NCBI GenBank assembly: GCA_003285105.1
Contig: CP030158.1
Location: 1,588,501 to 1,652,500 of the forward strand
Direction: 5' to 3'
Length of the DNA stretch: 64,000 nucleotides
Source of the DNA: Roseithermus sacchariphilus
Lineage (GTDB): Bacteria > Bacteroidota > Rhodothermia > Rhodothermales > MEBIC09517
Shown: positions 52,669-60,767 of the stretch, in pieces
How positions within the stretch are numbered: position 1 is the stretch's first letter
Layout of the letters: each line of letters begins with the position of its first letter
Notes under the pieces: generated by a model
The model's input: only the letters and a program-made list of their open reading frames with translations
What the model was told of the DNA's origin: nothing
Database searches by the model: none
Made by a program: the position numbers and the translations under genes

Positions 52669-55600
52669 CTACGGGGCCGGGGGTGGGCTGAAGACGAGGG
52701 CGTCGACGATGCAGACCGGCGCGCCGCCGGCCGGGCCGTCGAAGGTCAGGTAGACGTCGTGCAGGCCGTCGGTCGGTGTCAGCGGGGCCGTCTCCGGGCC
52801 GAAGCGCGGCGCCGGACCGTCCGGAGCCGGCACCTCGATCGTGCCGACGACCGGGCCGTCCGGGGCGTCCAGCCGCACCTGGATGGTGCCGCCGGTGGTG
52901 TTGCCCTGCGAGACGCCCACGACGGCCGTCAGCGCGGCGATGCCGCTCAGGTCGATCTGTTCGAAGGCGATGTAGCTGCCGGCCATGCCGACGACGACCT
53001 CCATCTCCGGGCCGCCGGTCATCTCCGCCGTGAGCGTGAAGCGCGAGGCGCCCTCGGTGACGTCGAAGTCCTCCGCTTCGACCTGCGGGTGGCGCAGGAT
53101 CAGCATTTCACGGGCCGTCAGCGGCCCGACGCCCTCGCCGCCCCGGTCGGTGTAGCTGGCGGTGAGGATGTAGCGCCCGTCGGTGCCGTTGCCGCGGTGC
53201 TCGGTCAGCGTCACGGTGCCGCTCGGCGGGAGGGCCGTGCCCGGCGCCTCGCCCTCCTGTTCGGCCAGCGACAGGATGTAGCGCACCATCTGCGCGGCCT
53301 GCTCGGGCGGCAGCTCCGGGTGCGCGGCCATGGCGCGGTCGCCCCAGACGCCGCTGCCGCCCTGGATGATCTTCTGCACGAGGTAGTCCTCGGCCCCTTC
53401 CTGCCCGGCATAGCGCTCGGCCACCTGCACGTACGACGGCCCGAGCGAGACGCTGTTCTCCTGGTGACAGGCCTGGCAATCCGCCTGCGCGATCAGGTCC
53501 TTGCCCAGGGCCGTCGTGGCAGCCGTCATGAGTTCCTGGTGCCCCTGTGCGGGGATCGTCAGGTCACGGCCTTCGGGGACGAACTGGAGCGAGACGACCA
53601 CCTGCTCCGGGGGGATACTGCCGTCGGCCAGCGCGCCGTCCTCGGGGTCGGTCACGGACACCTCATAGACCAGCGGCCGGTCGTCGAAATAGAACGTCCG
53701 GTTGGGCCGGACCGCGAGGCTCAGCGTCGGCATGGCGTTGCCCGCCAGGATCTCCACCGACGCCCGGCTCTCGGCGCCGGAGGGGTCGGAGACGGTCAGC
53801 ACGGCGGTGTAGACGCCCGGCTCGCGGTAGGTGTGGGTGAACGCCGGTTCGCGCGCGTCCACCGTTCCGTCGTTGTCCACGTCCCAGGCGAAGCGCAGGT
53901 CGTCGTAGTCGTTGTCGTACGAGGCCGCGCCGGAGAAGGCCACCGTCAGCGGCGTCGCCCCGACGGTGTGGTCGGCGGCGATCTGCGCCTGCGGCGGCCG
54001 GTTGCCGGCGTTGTAGGTGATCTTCGAGAGGCGGGCGTCCAGGTTCTGCGTGAACCAGCCCTTGCCGTATTCGAGGATGTACATGGCTCCGTCCGGGCCG
54101 AAGAGCATGTCCATCGTGTTGCTGACGTCGAGCGTCGTCGGCAGGAAGGGTTCCATCCAGGCGTAGTCGCCCTCCTCGTCCATCGTCACCACGGCGATCC
54201 AGTCGCGGACCCAGTCGTAGATGAACAGCTTGCCGTCGTAGTAGCGGGGGAATTTGACGTCGGAGGCGGGGTAATCGTCGTAGTAGTAGACAGGCCCGGC
54301 CATGGCGTTGCGGCCGCCGCTGCCGACGAGCGGAAACTCGGGCGAGGCGCCGTAGGGATACCAGATGAACGCCGGCTGGGCGGGCGGCAGCACGCGGGCG
54401 CCGGTGTTGTTGGGCGAGTCGTTGACGGGCCGCATCGGGTCGAAGGGCGGGCCGCTCTGGCCCGTGGCGAAGTCGTAGTCGCGGTAGGGCTTGTTGTCGC
54501 CGACGAAGTAGGGCCAGCCGAAGAAGCCGGCCGCGCGCGCCTGGTTGACCTCGTCGTGGCCTTTCGGTCCGCGCAGCGGGTTGTCATCCCGGGCATCCGG
54601 CCCGACCTCCCCCCAGTAGAGGTAGCCCGTGTGCCGGTCCACGGCGAGGCGGAAGGGGTTGCGGTTGCCCATCACGTAGATCTCCGGGCGCCCCTCGGCC
54701 GGGTCGCTGAAGAGGTTGCCCTCCGGGATGGTGTAGGTGCCGTCCGGTTGCGGCGTGATGCGCAGGATCTTGCCGCGCAGGTCCTGCGTGTTGGCGCTGG
54801 ACTTCTGCGCGTCCCACGGGCTGCGGTTGCAGTTGCGCGTGTCGTCGTTGTCCCGGCACAGGCGCGGCCCCTGGCGCTCGTCGATGGGCGCGTAGCCGTC
54901 CGAGGCGAAGGGGTTGGTGTTGTCACCGATGGAGAAGAACAGGTTGCCCTGCCCGTCGAACTCCACCGAGCCGCCCACGTGGCAGCACTGGTGGCGCTGC
55001 ACCGGCACGCTCAGCAGCACCTTCTCCGAGGCCCGGTCCAGCACGTTGCCCTCCAGCACGAAGCGAGACAGGTTGATCAGGGAGTCGACCGGGTGGGAGT
55101 AGGAGAGGTAGATCCAGTGGTTTTCCGCATAGTTCGGGTCGACGGCGACGCCGAGCAGCCCTTCCTCCTCGCCGGTGAAGACGTCGAGCGTGGCGATGGT
55201 CTCGGTCCGGCCGGCCTGCAGATCGTGGATCTTGATGGCGCCCTTGCGCTCGACGAAGATAATGCGGTCGGGGTCCAGGAAGTCGAGCTCCATCGGCTCG
55301 TTCAGGTTCTGGTCCATCACCGTCTTGGTGAAGCGGTTCTCCTCCGGCATCACCGTCGCCGCGCCGAAGTCGACCGGCTTGCCGTCGCCGATGGCCCACT
55401 CGATGCCGCCGAGGAGGTGCTTGAGGAAGAGCGGTTCGGCGAAGCTCTCGGAGGTGTGGCCGAGGGCCGTGTACCAGGCGCGTCCGCCGTCGAACTCGTG
55501 GTACCAGGCGATCGGGCGCGGCGCCGGCGCGGGGTGCTCGTCGGCCCGCTTGTACGTCGTCTCGTCGATGTTCAGCAGCACGTGCACGTCCGGGTTGCGG

Positions 55601-56130
55601 TCGCGGAAGTCGTACCACTCATCGGTGCGGACCCACGGGTCGGGCAGCATCTCGGTGGACGGGTGCGAGGCGTCGGCGACGTGCAGCGTGCCTTCGCGGA
55701 CGTTGGGGTTGCCCGGGTGGCTGGTGAAGTAGCCGCCGACGAGCCGCCCGTACCAGGGCCATCCGTACTCGGTGTCGGAGGCGGCGTGGATGCCGACGAA
55801 CCCGCCGCCGGCCTGGATGAAGCGGGCGAAGGCGATCTGCTGCGCGTCGTCGAGGATGTCGCCCGTGGTGCTCAGGAAGACGACCACGTTGAAGCGGGCC
55901 AGGTCGCGCTGGTTGAAGAGGGCGGCGTCCTCGGTGGCCTCCACCTCGAAGCCGTGCTCCGCGCCGAGCCGCCGGATGGCTTCGATGCCGGGCTCGATGG
56001 AAGCGTGACGGTAGCCTTCCGTCTTCGAGAACACCAGCACCCGCGGCGTCGGGGTATGGAAGAAGAGGAAGTAGGCGCCCACGAGGAGCAGCGGTACGAG
56101 GCTGGAGAGGAGCAGCGTCTTCTTGTTCAT
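52669..56130 (-). CDS. ThuA - sugar dehydrogenase - PKD - cytochrome c - CBM multidomain protein
   Basis: A 1153-residue exported or membrane-anchored protein (N-terminal helix LLLSSLVPLLLVGAYFLFF). In order: a ThuA domain (about 29-265, GGGFVGIHAASDTEY), a PQQ-dependent soluble glucose dehydrogenase-like propeller (about 280-690, EEGLLGVAVDPNY, GKILRITPQPDG), a PKD domain (about 700-790), a class I cytochrome c with CQACH haem site (C885, C888, H889) and a C-terminal CBM6-like domain. An electron path from sugar to haem in one chain is plausible. It is convergent with the pectin operon and not obviously part of it. Confidence 0.87.
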   Translation of the reverse strand: MNKKTLLLSSLVPLLLVGAYFLFFHTPTPRVLVFSKTEGYRHASIEPGIEAIRRLGAEHGFEVEATEDAALFNQRDLARFNVVVFLSTTGDILDDAQQIAFARFIQAGGGFVGIHAASDTEYGWPWYGRLVGGYFTSHPGNPNVREGTLHVADASHPSTEMLPDPWVRTDEWYDFRDRNPDVHVLLNIDETTYKRADEHPAPAPRPIAWYHEFDGGRAWYTALGHTSESFAEPLFLKHLLGGIEWAIGDGKPVDFGAATVMPEENRFTKTVMDQNLNEPMELDFLDPDRIIFVERKGAIKIHDLQAGRTETIATLDVFTGEEEGLLGVAVDPNYAENHWIYLSYSHPVDSLINLSRFVLEGNVLDRASEKVLLSVPVQRHQCCHVGGSVEFDGQGNLFFSIGDNTNPFASDGYAPIDERQGPRLCRDNDDTRNCNRSPWDAQKSSANTQDLRGKILRITPQPDGTYTIPEGNLFSDPAEGRPEIYVMGNRNPFRLAVDRHTGYLYWGEVGPDARDDNPLRGPKGHDEVNQARAAGFFGWPYFVGDNKPYRDYDFATGQSGPPFDPMRPVNDSPNNTGARVLPPAQPAFIWYPYGASPEFPLVGSGGRNAMAGPVYYYDDYPASDVKFPRYYDGKLFIYDWVRDWIAVVTMDEEGDYAWMEPFLPTTLDVSNTMDMLFGPDGAMYILEYGKGWFTQNLDARLSKITYNAGNRPPQAQIAADHTVGATPLTVAFSGAASYDNDYDDLRFAWDVDNDGTVDAREPAFTHTYREPGVYTAVLTVSDPSGAESRASVEILAGNAMPTLSLAVRPNRTFYFDDRPLVYEVSVTDPEDGALADGSIPPEQVVVSLQFVPEGRDLTIPAQGHQELMTAATTALGKDLIAQADCQACHQENSVSLGPSYVQVAERYAGQEGAEDYLVQKIIQGGSGVWGDRAMAAHPELPPEQAAQMVRYILSLAEQEGEAPGTALPPSGTVTLTEHRGNGTDGRYILTASYTDRGGEGVGPLTAREMLILRHPQVEAEDFDVTEGASRFTLTAEMTGGPEMEVVVGMAGSYIAFEQIDLSGIAALTAVVGVSQGNTTGGTIQVRLDAPDGPVVGTIEVPAPDGPAPRFGPETAPLTPTDGLHDVYLTFDGPAGGAPVCIVDALVFSPPPAP

Positions 56131-56323: not shown

Positions 56324-56715
56324 TCACCAGGCTACTACTGGGAGATCGTCGAGGTCTGAAAAATGACGATCCCGGGTGATCAGGGTGAGCTTGTGCTGCC
56401 GGGTGAGTGCCGCAATCCAGAGGTCGTTTTCCGGAATGGGCCGTCCTCTGGCTCGTAAGCGTTGCTTGATCTGGCCGTACCAGCGTGCTGTGTCGGCATC
56501 GCAGGGCAGGATCTGGCTGGCTGCAGCAAAGCGCGTGATGCGATCGAGGTTCTCCGACACCCGTGTCGACCGGTGGGCGCCATAATAGAGCTCTCCCAGA
56601 ACGATGCTCGGGATAAAGACCTCACGAGCAGCCATCAGTGGCTCCACCACGGCGGCCTCGCCTGCGAAGAGAGCGATCACGATGTTCGCGTGTCGAGGAG
56701 GAGCCTACCATTCAT
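56324..56715 (-). pseudogene. vapC: VapC-type PIN toxin gene, frameshifted near its start
   Basis: A PIN-domain ribonuclease toxin. From ATG 56715 the product reads MNGRLLLDTR and then stops. An extra CG (within 56687-56690) separates LLLDT from NIVIALFAGE in another frame. Removing it restores the PIN start LLLDTNIVIALF. The remaining frame (56324-56680, GTG start, 118 codons) contains the later acidic residues in LGELYYGA, PENDLWIAA and TRDRHF but lacks the first catalytic aspartate. The toxin should be inactive unless the CG is a sequencing error. The intended start overlaps the end of the antitoxin gene, as is usual for vapBC. Confidence 0.8.
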
Positions 56716-57026: not shown

Positions 57027-58391
57027 CTACGGCACCCGTACCAGGCGCTGCACCCGGACGCGGCCGTCGACCTCCAGACGAGCCAGGTAGACGCCGGCGG
57101 GCTGGTCGGCGGCGTCCCAGCGGATCCGGTGCGTCCCGGCCGGCAGGGCGCCGTCCACGAGCGTGGCGACGGTCTGGCCGAGCAGGTTGACGACGGTCAG
57201 GCGGACGGTCCCCGGGCGGGTCAGCTCGAGGGGCAGCGTCGTCCGGGGGGTGAAGGGGTTCGGGTAGGCGGGGTGGAGGGTCGCCCGCACGGGCCGCGTG
57301 CCGGCGACGGGCGTGGTGGCGGTGGCCGTCCGCTCGTAGCGGAAGGCGATGTGCGCCGGGGCGATGCCGGCGTCGAAGCGGGACAGCTCGGTGCCGGCGC
57401 GGTCGTGGATCGTGACGTAGCCCGCCGTCGTGAAGCCCGTCACGCGGCCCACGTAGAGGCGGGCGGCGACCGCGTCGTAGGCGACGGCCCCGATCCCGTC
57501 GGCGCCGCCGAGGCGCAGCGTGTCGACGAGGGCGTTCACGGCGGTGTCGAAGCGGAGGATCTGCCGCTCGTCGTCGATGACCACGTAGGCCTCCTCGGCC
57601 GCGGCAGCGTAGAAGACGTTCTGCCCGGGACCGGCCGAGCCGTGCTGGGTCGTCAGCGCGATGCGCCCGATTTCTTCATGGTCGGCGTCGAAGGTGACGA
57701 TGGCGCCGTTCGTCTGCTCGATGATCTGCGTGAAGTCGTCGTTGTAGACGGTCTTGCCCGTGCAGAACACGTGCAGTTCGGCCTGCTCGTCCACGACCAG
57801 CGAGCGCGCGCCGTCACAGCCGGCCTCGAGCGTCTCGATGACGGTGTCGGTCGCCACGTCGATCACGGCGACCTGACCGCTGGCGCCGAAGCCGCCGAGG
57901 GCCACGTAGGCGGTACCGCCGCGCACGGCGATCTCCTCGGGGGTGCCGCCGACGGCGATGGTGCCGGTCGCGGTGTTCGTGGCGAGGTCGAGGACCGTCA
58001 CCGTGGACGTCGCGCCGAAGAGCTGGTTGGTGACGTAAGCCTTGTCCTCGTCCACGACGGCGAGGTAGCGGGGGCCGGGCACGTCGGGAATCTGGGCGAT
58101 CCGGGCGAGGGTGACGGCGTCGAGCACGTCGATGCGGCCGCCGGTGTTGGAGGCGAGGTACACGCGGCCGTCGTGGACGAGCAGGCTCTGGAGGATCGTG
58201 CCGAAGTCGGCCAGCGCCGTCGCGGCCTGCGCGGTGGCCGGGTCGTAGAAGGTGACGGAGGCGTTGCCGTCCGAGAAATTGCCCTGGTTGCCGACGAAGA
58301 CGCCGGTGACGGTCTGTGCGTCGAGTCCACGGGCCGTCGGCAGGAGCAGCAGAAGCAGGGCGAGGAGGCGGGTAACGGGCAGATGGTGCAT
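57027..58391 (-). CDS. Beta-propeller surface protein with T9SS domain, possible BtuG counterpart
   Basis: A 454-residue secreted protein (signal LLALLLLLLPTARGLDAQ) with YVTN/YncE-like beta-propeller repeats over about 26-360 (DGRVYLASNTGGRIDVLDA, GGTPEEIAVRGG) and a C-terminal T9SS domain (HPAYPNPFTPRTTLPLEL, LTVVNLLGQTVATL). It lies 39 bp after the BtuB-like receptor gene, within the same riboswitch-controlled transcript. In gut Bacteroidota, BtuG is a surface beta-propeller that binds cobalamin and caps BtuB. The same arrangement here, with T9SS sorting instead of a lipid anchor, suggests a similar job. This is inference. Confidence 0.75.
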   Translation of the reverse strand: MHHLPVTRLLALLLLLLPTARGLDAQTVTGVFVGNQGNFSDGNASVTFYDPATAQAATALADFGTILQSLLVHDGRVYLASNTGGRIDVLDAVTLARIAQIPDVPGPRYLAVVDEDKAYVTNQLFGATSTVTVLDLATNTATGTIAVGGTPEEIAVRGGTAYVALGGFGASGQVAVIDVATDTVIETLEAGCDGARSLVVDEQAELHVFCTGKTVYNDDFTQIIEQTNGAIVTFDADHEEIGRIALTTQHGSAGPGQNVFYAAAAEEAYVVIDDERQILRFDTAVNALVDTLRLGGADGIGAVAYDAVAARLYVGRVTGFTTAGYVTIHDRAGTELSRFDAGIAPAHIAFRYERTATATTPVAGTRPVRATLHPAYPNPFTPRTTLPLELTRPGTVRLTVVNLLGQTVATLVDGALPAGTHRIRWDAADQPAGVYLARLEVDGRVRVQRLVRVP

Positions 58392-58430
58392 GGATACGTT
58401 CGGGGTTTGAACGGAGGGGAGGGGGCGTCC

Positions 58431-60341
58431 TCACCGCCCGCCGGCGTCGAGGGTGAGTTGCAGCCGAGCGTGACAGGGCGGCAGCGGATAGCCTTTGATG
58501 ATTTCCAGGTGTTGGTCGGTGAGGTTGTAGACCGAGAGGGCCAGCGTGGCCGTCGCCGGGCCCATGGGGAGCCGCAGGCGCAGGCGGCCGTCGAGGGCCC
58601 GGAGGGGGTCGAGCGCCTGGCGGCCGTCGGTGGTGAGGTAGCGCCGGCCGATGTAGCGCGCCAGCAGGTCCAGCCACAGCGGACCGAGGCGGAGGCCGGC
58701 CCCGGCCTTGAGCTGATGGCGGGGGACGTAGCGCAGCGGCTGGTCGTAGGCGGGGTCGTCCGGCGCGGAGCGATCGCGTGCGTCGGTGAGGGTGTAGAAG
58801 GCGTGGCCGCCGAGCGCCAGCCAGGGCGCCAGCGGCCGGTCGGCCCGGAGGGACGCTTCCAGCCCCCGCGTGCGGACGCGCTGCACGTTGGCGGGCGACC
58901 AGAAGCCCTGCCGGGTGGGTTCCCAGACGATCTGGTCCGTGATGCGTGCGGTGAAGGCCGTCACCTCGGCCTGCACGGCCGGCGTCCCAGCCATCAGGCC
59001 GGCGTCGACGGTCCAGCCGTGCTCGGGGCGCAGGTCCGGGTTGCCGCCCGGCTGCCAGAAGCGATCGTTGAAGGTGGGTATGCGGTAGGCGCGGCCGGCG
59101 CCCACCTTGAGGTGGATCGGCAACGAGCGGACCGGCTGCAGGTTGAGGCCCAGGCGGGGGCTCACGGCCCACCGGAGCGGACCCTGCGCGGCGGCATAGG
59201 CGTCGAGCCGGAGGGCGGGGTAGAGCAGCAGCCGGCCGTAGTGGCCGGTGCCGTGGACGAACGCGCCGGCGTGGCCGTCGCGGGCCTGCTCGGCCAGGTT
59301 CGGGTGGGCCGCCTGCCCGAAGCCCCCGGCCAGCCCCCCGGCCAGCAGCCAGCGCCGCCCGGCGAGGGCCTGGACCTCGGCTTCGGCAGAGGCGAGCAGC
59401 GTGCGGCCCGTGTCGTCGACCTGGAGCCCGGGGTGGACGTAGCGCAGGCGGCTGTGCTGCACGAGCCCGCCCAGGCGCAGCGTCCTCCCGCGCCGGCGCC
59501 GCTCATGGTCGGCCCAGAGGCGCAGGTTCGTGTCCCATTGCCGTTCGCCCCGGGGCGAGGCCGAGGCCAGGCCGGGCAGGCCCTGCTCGGCGTCGTTGAT
59601 CCAGGCGGCGAGGTGCGTGCGGTGGGTATCCCCCCGGTGGCCCAGCGCGGCGTAGAGCGCCCGGCGGGTGCGGTCGGCGTTGCGGCGGCGCACCTCGCGG
59701 GGAGGGAAGAGCGCCTCGTTCACGTAGGGGAAGTCGCCGTCGGCGGCGCTGTATTCCGCGGCGGCCGTGGCCGAGAAGCGGCCCCGGGAGCCACTCAGCA
59801 GCAGGCTGCCCTGACGCTCGCCGTAGGCGCCGAGCCCGCCGGCGAGCCGCGCCCGCGGCGTCGGGCCGGGCCGCACCGTGCGGAGGTTCACCACGCCCCC
59901 CAGGCCGTCGGTGCCGTAGAGCGCCGAGCCGGCGCCGTGCATCACCTCCACCCCGTCGAGCAGGATCGTCGGCAGCAGGTTCAGGTCGAGCTGCCCCAGT
60001 TGCGGGTCGGCGATGCGGTGGCCGTCGAGCAGCACGAGCGTCTGGGCCGCCCCGGTGCCGCGCAGCGAGAGCGTCGCCAGCCCGCCGTCGCCGTAGCGCT
60101 TGACGAACAGCCCGGCCCGGGCTTCCAGCAGATCGGCGACGGAGCGGGCGCCGGTGGCGGCGATGGCCTCGGGGCCGAGGACGGTGACCCGCACGGGGGC
60201 CGTGGTGGTCGGCGTCTGCGAGCGGGCCGCCGTCACCGTCACGTCCGGCAGGACGACGGTCGTGTCGAGGGGCGTCTGGGCTGCCACCGGCCACATCGCC
60301 GGCAGCAGGACGAACAGCAGAGCGGAGAAACGTGCGCGCAT
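58431..60341 (-). CDS. btuB: BtuB-like TonB-dependent cobalamin receptor
   Basis: A 636-residue TonB-dependent receptor with signal peptide (LLFVLLPAMWPVAAQ), a TonB-box-like segment (DTTVVLPDVTVTAAR), plug domain (GARSVADLLEARAGLFVKRY, GAGSALYGTDGLGGVVNLRT) and a short 22-strand-type barrel. Size and plug resemble BtuB. The leader carries a cobalamin riboswitch, which is strong evidence for B12 or corrinoid transport. The ATG at 60341 directly follows the T-run of the leader terminator. Confidence 0.9.
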   Translation of the reverse strand: MRARFSALLFVLLPAMWPVAAQTPLDTTVVLPDVTVTAARSQTPTTTAPVRVTVLGPEAIAATGARSVADLLEARAGLFVKRYGDGGLATLSLRGTGAAQTLVLLDGHRIADPQLGQLDLNLLPTILLDGVEVMHGAGSALYGTDGLGGVVNLRTVRPGPTPRARLAGGLGAYGERQGSLLLSGSRGRFSATAAAEYSAADGDFPYVNEALFPPREVRRRNADRTRRALYAALGHRGDTHRTHLAAWINDAEQGLPGLASASPRGERQWDTNLRLWADHERRRRGRTLRLGGLVQHSRLRYVHPGLQVDDTGRTLLASAEAEVQALAGRRWLLAGGLAGGFGQAAHPNLAEQARDGHAGAFVHGTGHYGRLLLYPALRLDAYAAAQGPLRWAVSPRLGLNLQPVRSLPIHLKVGAGRAYRIPTFNDRFWQPGGNPDLRPEHGWTVDAGLMAGTPAVQAEVTAFTARITDQIVWEPTRQGFWSPANVQRVRTRGLEASLRADRPLAPWLALGGHAFYTLTDARDRSAPDDPAYDQPLRYVPRHQLKAGAGLRLGPLWLDLLARYIGRRYLTTDGRQALDPLRALDGRLRLRLPMGPATATLALSVYNLTDQHLEIIKGYPLPPCHARLQLTLDAGGR

Positions 60342-60374
60342 AAAAAAGCCCGAACCTCATATCAGAGGCCCGGG
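60342..60374 (-). terminator. Riboswitch-controlled intrinsic terminator abutting the btuB start
   Basis: On the minus strand CCCGGGCCTC (60374-60365) pairs with GAGGTTCGGG (60358-60349), including two G-U pairs, around a six-base loop, followed by GC and six T (60347-60342). The ATG begins at the next base. Confidence 0.85.
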
Positions 60375-60469
60375 TCGCACGTCGATGCGGATCGGGGGCC
60401 GGCCGGAGCCGCGTGCCGCCGTCACGCAGGAGTACGCCGCAGGCCTCAGGTCCCGGAGGCAGTCGGCAT

Positions 60470-60716
60470 AGACGCACGCTGGCAGGTCTCCTGGCTTGCT
60501 GCGCGCTCCCGGCAGGGGAGCACAACGGATCGGCTCGACCACCGGCCTTCCCGGATCCCGGAGGATCCAGTGACCGGCAGCCTCATCGTCGCCCGTACGG
60601 CACGCAGCCTACAGTTGCGGGTACAGCTCCGGACTCGGAAGGGCACGAGGGCGTGGTCTCGCTTCGTCGTCGAAACACAGCCTTCGGCTCTTTCCTCACC
60701 GGATTCCCTTTTAATC
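60470..60716 (-). ncRNA. Cobalamin riboswitch
   Basis: The conserved parts appear in order on the minus strand: AAAAGGGAATCCGGTGAGG near 60714-60694, CCCGCAACTGTAG (60621-60609), GGTCACTGG (60575-60567) and the B12 box AAGCCAGGAGACCTGCCAGC (about 60497-60478). With the downstream terminator it should shut off btuB and the beta-propeller gene when adenosylcobalamin or a related corrinoid is plentiful. Confidence 0.93.
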
Positions 60717-60767
60717 CGCCCTTGTCGAAAGGGGTCGGAACCAGCGGCGTATGCGAAAGAACACGGG

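Follow-up and report, generated by a model that had tools for sequence, protein, structure and literature searches.

The closest described relatives of the locus reported here are the BtuB2G2 and BtuB3G3 corrinoid uptake systems of Bacteroides thetaiotaomicron (pdb entries 8bmx and 8p97; PMC10404256, PMC6143338). These combine control by a cobalamin riboswitch with a TonB-dependent receptor, BtuB, and the adjacently encoded BtuG, a seven-bladed propeller protein lipidated at its N-terminus. Of 114 BtuG homologues from the gut, nearly all have been reported to be lipoproteins (PMC6143338). According to a published proposal (PMC10404256), BtuG is a "pedal-bin" lid on BtuB and its lipid-bearing N-terminal linker, which runs along the extracellular loops (EL) EL2 and EL11, serves as the hinge. 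The locus under study lies in a 64 kb stretch of the Roseithermus sacchariphilus genome (contig CP030158.1, positions 1,588,501–1,652,500; here called the window) and comprises a cobalamin riboswitch, a gene for a BtuB-like receptor and a btuG homologue. The encoded propeller protein has no lipobox and ends in a sorting domain of the type IX secretion system (T9SS). With a probability of about 80%, the operon encodes a BtuBG uptake unit whose B12-capturing lid for BtuB is displayed via the T9SS and not via a lipid.

The operon shares with the Bacteroides systems the riboswitch control, the adjacent TonB receptor, the BtuG fold, the N-x-G-N-F loop of the propeller and an EL8-type motif in the receptor. 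It differs from them in the missing lipobox, the almost absent linker and the C-terminal tail. Furthermore, it consists of btuB followed by btuG, whereas btuFCD and the accessory binders of the gut loci are not part of it. An extra C-terminal domain behind a BtuG propeller is also found in BtuG1/BtuGH (8blw), but there it is the B12-binding BtuH and here the T9SS sorting domain.

Organization of the operon

On the minus strand, the order of transcription is riboswitch, hairpin, receptor gene, a gap of 39 bp and propeller gene. An earlier note, made from the DNA letters alone, had described a riboswitch, a BtuB-like receptor and, 39 bp later, a YVTN-like propeller with a T9SS domain. Each of these elements is borne out, including the length of the gap. 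The covariance model RF00174 matches over its full length with a score of 94.3 bits (gathering threshold 31.5 bits) and the aptamer reaches position 60760, past the end of the region at 60716 in the earlier note. A chance match was dismissed, as no other RNA family has a match in the window and the hit recurs at the same place in relatives.

The hairpin downstream of the aptamer is probably the expression platform of the riboswitch. A segment of 55 nt covering it folds with −24.4 kcal/mol (z −3.6). Its 3' arm contains the sequence GAGG, 13 nt ahead of the AUG of btuB, which is possibly the ribosome site. Control at the level of transcription, translation or both is therefore conceivable. A scan for sigma-70 promoters found none.

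The propeller is a homologue of BtuG

The propeller protein matches the YVTN repeat model (47.1 bits, cut-off 27.85) and PF16819/DUF5074 (70.4 bits, cut-off 27.2). Its AlphaFold2 model has a predicted local distance difference test score (pLDDT) of 88.9, with values mostly above 90 throughout the propeller. In a VIA-align comparison of this model with the PDB, the top 11 matches are without exception BtuG entries with Z-scores of 33.7–37.3, led by 3dsm (Z 37.3, r.m.s. deviation 2.6, 311 residues). BtuG structures are likewise the best PDB matches in Foldseek. A profile built from 34 relatives matches BtuG structures across the whole propeller at about 1e-51 (8.1e-52 for 8baz). In sequence as well as in fold, the propeller is thus homologous to BtuG. 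The relation to BtuG proposed in the earlier note holds, but the term analogue falls short, since fold (Z 37) and profile (1e-51) indicate homology.

Two cysteines of the propeller, Cys192 and Cys210, are invariant in all 16 aligned Rhodothermales forms, both lipoprotein and T9SS type, at positions that are not cysteine in BtuG2. They possibly form a disulfide.

Export signal and sorting domain

The C-terminal tail scores 33.8/37.1 bits with TIGR04183 (cut-off 23). Modelled alone, it reaches a pLDDT of 95.5, and the PDB structure most similar to it is the T9SS C-terminal domain (CTD) of mirolase (8qb1). The NucA CTD (8glk) and PorU/PorZ follow further down, amid general immunoglobulin-like folds. 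The genome encodes about 104 T9SS type A tails, among which that of the propeller ranks in the middle of the list. A chance tail was dismissed on account of this number, the mid-list score and the alignment of the tails of relatives at 32–45% identity. PorU (998 bits, cut-off 420) and SprA are present in the same genome. In tail sequence and fold, cleavable Sec signal and the presence of PorU and SprA, the propeller protein resembles T9SS type A cargo, which typically comprises proteases, glycosidases and adhesins.

The export signal contains no cysteine, so that the feature marking BtuG as a surface lipoprotein is absent and the T9SS tail is found instead. Lacking a lipobox, the protein is not a BtuG as defined by lipidation; it is a homologous counterpart predicted to be exported by the T9SS.

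Two mutually exclusive anchors

The classification of anchors covered 160 propeller proteins, taken from Rhodothermales, from elsewhere in the class and from the remaining phylum Bacteroidota. A lipobox-type cysteine before the propeller and no tail is found in 125, and 34 have a tail of about 100 residues and a signal without lipobox cysteine; the remaining one is cut off by a contig end. No clear carrier of both anchors is among them, and the lipid anchor and the T9SS tail are mutually exclusive in this family. Three of the 34 tailed forms have an early cysteine in the hydrophobic stretch of the signal and were called non-lipobox by eye. A lipobox reading of hydrophobic-stretch cysteines was rejected by eye in L039, L033, L035 and L037. 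The linker between anchor or cleavage site and propeller has a median length of 14 residues in the lipoproteins and about 4 in the T9SS forms.

On a tree of 136 propeller cores, from which tail and signal were excluded, the anchor must have changed five times or more, and strongly supported branches force three of these changes. A single T9SS clade, and thus one origin, is rejected (approximately unbiased test, p ~1e-59). Since the root was not inferred, the tree gives the changes without their direction. The T9SS clades are that of the window protein (families f1, f3, f4 and f8), f9/f11, f17 together with a metagenome-assembled genome (MAG) of Balneolales, part of f18 and part of f44. The form is found outside Rhodothermales, too. 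Genera g22, g27 and g28 hold both anchor forms; their T9SS copies, which fall in a deep clade of their own, could stem from old paralogy or from gene transfer. SprA was found in 110 of the 114 Rhodothermales genomes examined, and nearly all genomes with a lipoprotein BtuG are among these. Loss of the T9SS as cause of the lipoprotein forms was rejected on this basis, and the choice of anchor is not dictated by the presence of the T9SS.

Lipoprotein export and T9SS, the two routes of surface display in Bacteroidota, appear to be exchangeable on one protein family with the receptor partner retained. Natural BtuG homologues without lipid, nearly without linker and tethered at the other end offer a direct way to ask whether the hinge is needed. 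The BtuG-related full texts that were searched make no mention of the T9SS, and a single paper contains both terms, only incidentally; most subscription journals were outside this coverage and an earlier report is possible. No report on BtuG in connection with Rhodothermus was found, nor a published T9SS-displayed lid of a nutrient transporter in the literature searched. The interpretation in the earlier note is supported, and no description of a T9SS form of BtuG was found in the literature covered. It needs correction in one further respect: the same family exists both as lipoprotein and as T9SS cargo.

Genome G033 carries two divergent T9SS-type copies (L079 and L085), each with a BtuB, and genome G032 of the same genus has a lipoprotein form (L062). 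The lipoprotein-type BtuG of L240 has about 316 additional C-terminal residues, perhaps as in the BtuG-BtuH fusion BtuG1. L130 is a lipoprotein-type BtuG on a contig of a MAG labelled Caldisericaceae (non-Bacteroidota), which points to mis-binning or transfer.

Putative corrinoid-gripping loop and receptor

In BtuG2, two loops, of which Asn54–Thr64 is one, grip the corrinoid "like a pair of pliers" (PMC10404256). The counterpart of Asn54–Thr64 is the highly conserved family stretch N35-x-G37-x-F39-x3-N43. The BtuG2 loop residues Asn54, Gly56, Phe58 and Asn62 are kept in 77–100% of the alignment rows. Five pocket aromatics have been named for BtuG2, namely Trp194, Tyr239, Trp272, Tyr316 and Tyr335 (PMC10404256). 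The positions of Trp194 and Tyr335 are occupied by the aromatic Phe168 and Phe320 and are aromatic in 29/30 and 30/30 T9SS forms, respectively.

The receptor consists of the domains Plug and TonB_dep_Rec. Its best PDB matches are the BtuB structures of B. thetaiotaomicron (8bmx, 8blw, 8p97 and 8p98), and its alignments with the three BtuBs of this organism cover the plug and, separately, the EL8-bearing region. The EL8 sequences of these BtuBs are IIWLPTTKGFFSPRN / IIWLPTSKGFYSPVN, and the window receptor has IVWEPTRQGFWSPAN. Trp481 aligns with Tyr538 of BtuB3, which contacts the corrinoid (PMC10404256), so that an aromatic residue is found at this position. It is aromatic in 29 of 34 receptors paired with T9SS forms and in 108 of 118 paired with lipoprotein forms. 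The residues Trp473, Pro475, Pro483 and Asn485 of the motif are kept in 33–34 of the 34 receptors of T9SS forms, with Trp473 and Asn485 invariant and Pro475 nearly so. By alignment, the EL8 motif known from BtuBs that partner with BtuG is thus retained in the receptor. In E. coli BtuB, also an outer-membrane corrinoid receptor, the asparagine of the motif is present but the W-x-P...W-S-P part is absent. E. coli BtuB works without BtuG.

Siderophore and hemin models of NCBIfam also match the receptor, with scores below that of the B12 model, and there are other receptor and permease loci in the genome. The receptor might on these grounds import another ligand such as heme or a siderophore and be under corrinoid control for an indirect reason. 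This is very improbable, as the best structural matches are Bacteroides BtuBs aligned through the EL8 region. BtuC-type permeases occur elsewhere in the genome.

Linkage of propeller, receptor and riboswitch

The survey of the 114 Rhodothermales genomes yielded 87 clear propeller loci. Of these, 75 have a cobalamin riboswitch on their own strand, 1.9–2.9 kb upstream. The remaining 12 have no riboswitch in register, and several of them are near contig ends. A BtuB open reading frame lies ahead of nearly all Rhodothermales propellers whose loci were inspected. Propeller and riboswitch occur together in 83 genomes, the propeller alone in 3, the riboswitch alone in 13 and neither in 15 (Fisher p 1e-8, which is a guide only since the genomes are related). 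Directly upstream of the propeller gene, a BtuB open reading frame is present for 33 of 34 T9SS-type and 115 of 125 lipoprotein-type homologues. Co-occurrence with btuB, whose absence the earlier note had named among the refuting conditions, is therefore observed for both forms, and the pair is conserved in Rhodothermales.

YVTN propellers are common, and the next structural match after BtuG is the archaeal YVTN propeller of a surface-layer protein, 1l0q (Z 33.2), which is also the top match of the single sequence in phmmer. These matches would agree with a generic surface protein of the YVTN type, either an adhesin or an enzyme, which happens to be co-transcribed with a receptor that imports corrinoid on its own. 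This reading is hardly compatible with the conserved order of riboswitch, btuB and propeller or with the position of the gripping loop among the most conserved stretches, and the full-length profile matches favour BtuG. This explanation is thus considered quite unlikely.

Proposed mechanism of uptake

The preferred interpretation as a BtuBG uptake unit builds on the gene order, riboswitch and hairpin, family and fold, gripping loop, EL8-type motif, tail with its machinery and recurrent anchor exchange. At low corrinoid concentration, the riboswitch would allow read-through of the terminator ahead of btuB. BtuB and the BtuG-type propeller would then be produced as a cobalamin-repressed outer-membrane uptake unit. 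The propeller is predicted to leave the cytoplasm by the Sec pathway with its cleavable signal and then, directed by its C-terminal tail, to pass the outer membrane via the T9SS. PorU probably cleaves off the tail and links the resulting C-terminus to anionic lipopolysaccharide (A-LPS), which would keep the propeller at the surface. From the likeness to the Bacteroides complexes we infer that corrinoid binds in the mouth of the propeller, that the propeller forms a lid on BtuB and that EL8 assists in passing the ligand on to BtuB, as it does in Bacteroides. BtuG-assisted B12 capture would thereby reach beyond gut Bacteroides and include Rhodothermales and Balneolales of the environment.

Some observations weigh against this interpretation. 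The identity of the propeller to BtuG2 is only about 21%. The counterpart of Trp272 is non-aromatic, Tyr316 is replaced by Gly301 (aromatic in only about half of the T9SS forms) and the loop of Tyr239 aligns ambiguously, with Tyr216 in the profile alignment read by eye and Thr214 in MAFFT. As the gripping loop and the positions of Trp194 and Tyr335 are kept and those of Trp272 and Tyr316 are not, the predicted ligand site is recognisably related to that of BtuG2 but not identical. The best NCBIfam model of the receptor, TonB-B12 (TIGR01779), scores 145.5 bits, far under its curated cut-off of 599.7. SprA was not matched in genome G046, which has a T9SS form (91% complete, many contigs). Additionally, release from the cell is another possible fate of T9SS type A cargo.

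The sequence of the propeller does not distinguish surface retention from release. A released form would be a diffusible high-affinity corrinoid scavenger (cobalophore), free or on vesicles, that docks later on the BtuB of its operon, and by repeatedly exchanging lipid and T9SS anchors the family would have switched between private and releasable corrinoid capture. Secretion is what type A tails direct, and no N-terminal linker is left as hinge. Lipoprotein BtuG has also been found on vesicles (PMC12751083). The strict pairing with BtuB and the conserved EL8-type motif of the receptors fit a resident lid. Type A cargo in PorU-bearing species is usually joined to A-LPS, as established for Porphyromonas. 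Release is therefore regarded as unlikely, although less so than the two explanations discussed above.

The use of B12 in this genome is indicated by IcmF (1515.7 bits, cut-off 1500) and by a protein of the MeaB type that contains a B12-binding domain. A second cobalamin riboswitch (L112:5142-5381; G000:C1:3649141-3649380, plus strand) is located directly before nrdB-nrdA. By the names read from the sequence, these encode a B12-independent ribonucleotide reductase, for which a riboswitch is the expected isozyme control.

Table 1. Features of the operon and neighbouring genes, in positions of the window.
Feature	Position	Strand	Basis and details
Cobalamin riboswitch aptamer (RF00174)	60463-60760	-	Model positions 1-189, 94.3 bits, E 3.6e-22
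Terminator-like hairpin	60349-60374	-	10 bp stem, 6-nt loop, then CUUUUUU into AUG of btuB
BtuB-like TonB-dependent receptor, 636 aa	58431-60341	-	Domain and family profiles, PDB matches
EL8-type motif of receptor, residues 473-485, WEPTRQGFWSPAN	58887-58925	-	Alignment to Bacteroides BtuB
btuG homologue, 454 aa: signal peptide, seven-bladed propeller, T9SS tail	57027-58391	-	Profiles, AlphaFold2, fold matches
Export signal, residues 1-26, no cysteine, ends ...LDAQ	58314-58391	-	Signal peptidase I type by eye
Seven-bladed beta-propeller, residues 27-353	57333-58313	-	AlphaFold2, VIA-align, family profile
Putative corrinoid-gripping loop, residues 35-45, NQGNFSDGNAS	58257-58289	-	By homology, counterpart of BtuG2 Asn54-Thr64
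T9SS type A C-terminal sorting domain, residues ~368-454, YPNPF motif	57030-57290	-	TIGR04183
PIN-domain protein	56324-56680	-	
1153-aa multidomain protein	52669-56130	-	

Neighbouring genes

A PADLOC scan gave no match. The PIN-domain protein encoded just downstream of the operon is a possible VapC-type toxin of a toxin-antitoxin pair. The 1153-aa protein contains ThuA, glucose/sorbosone dehydrogenase, PKD, cytochrome c and CBM6 domains.

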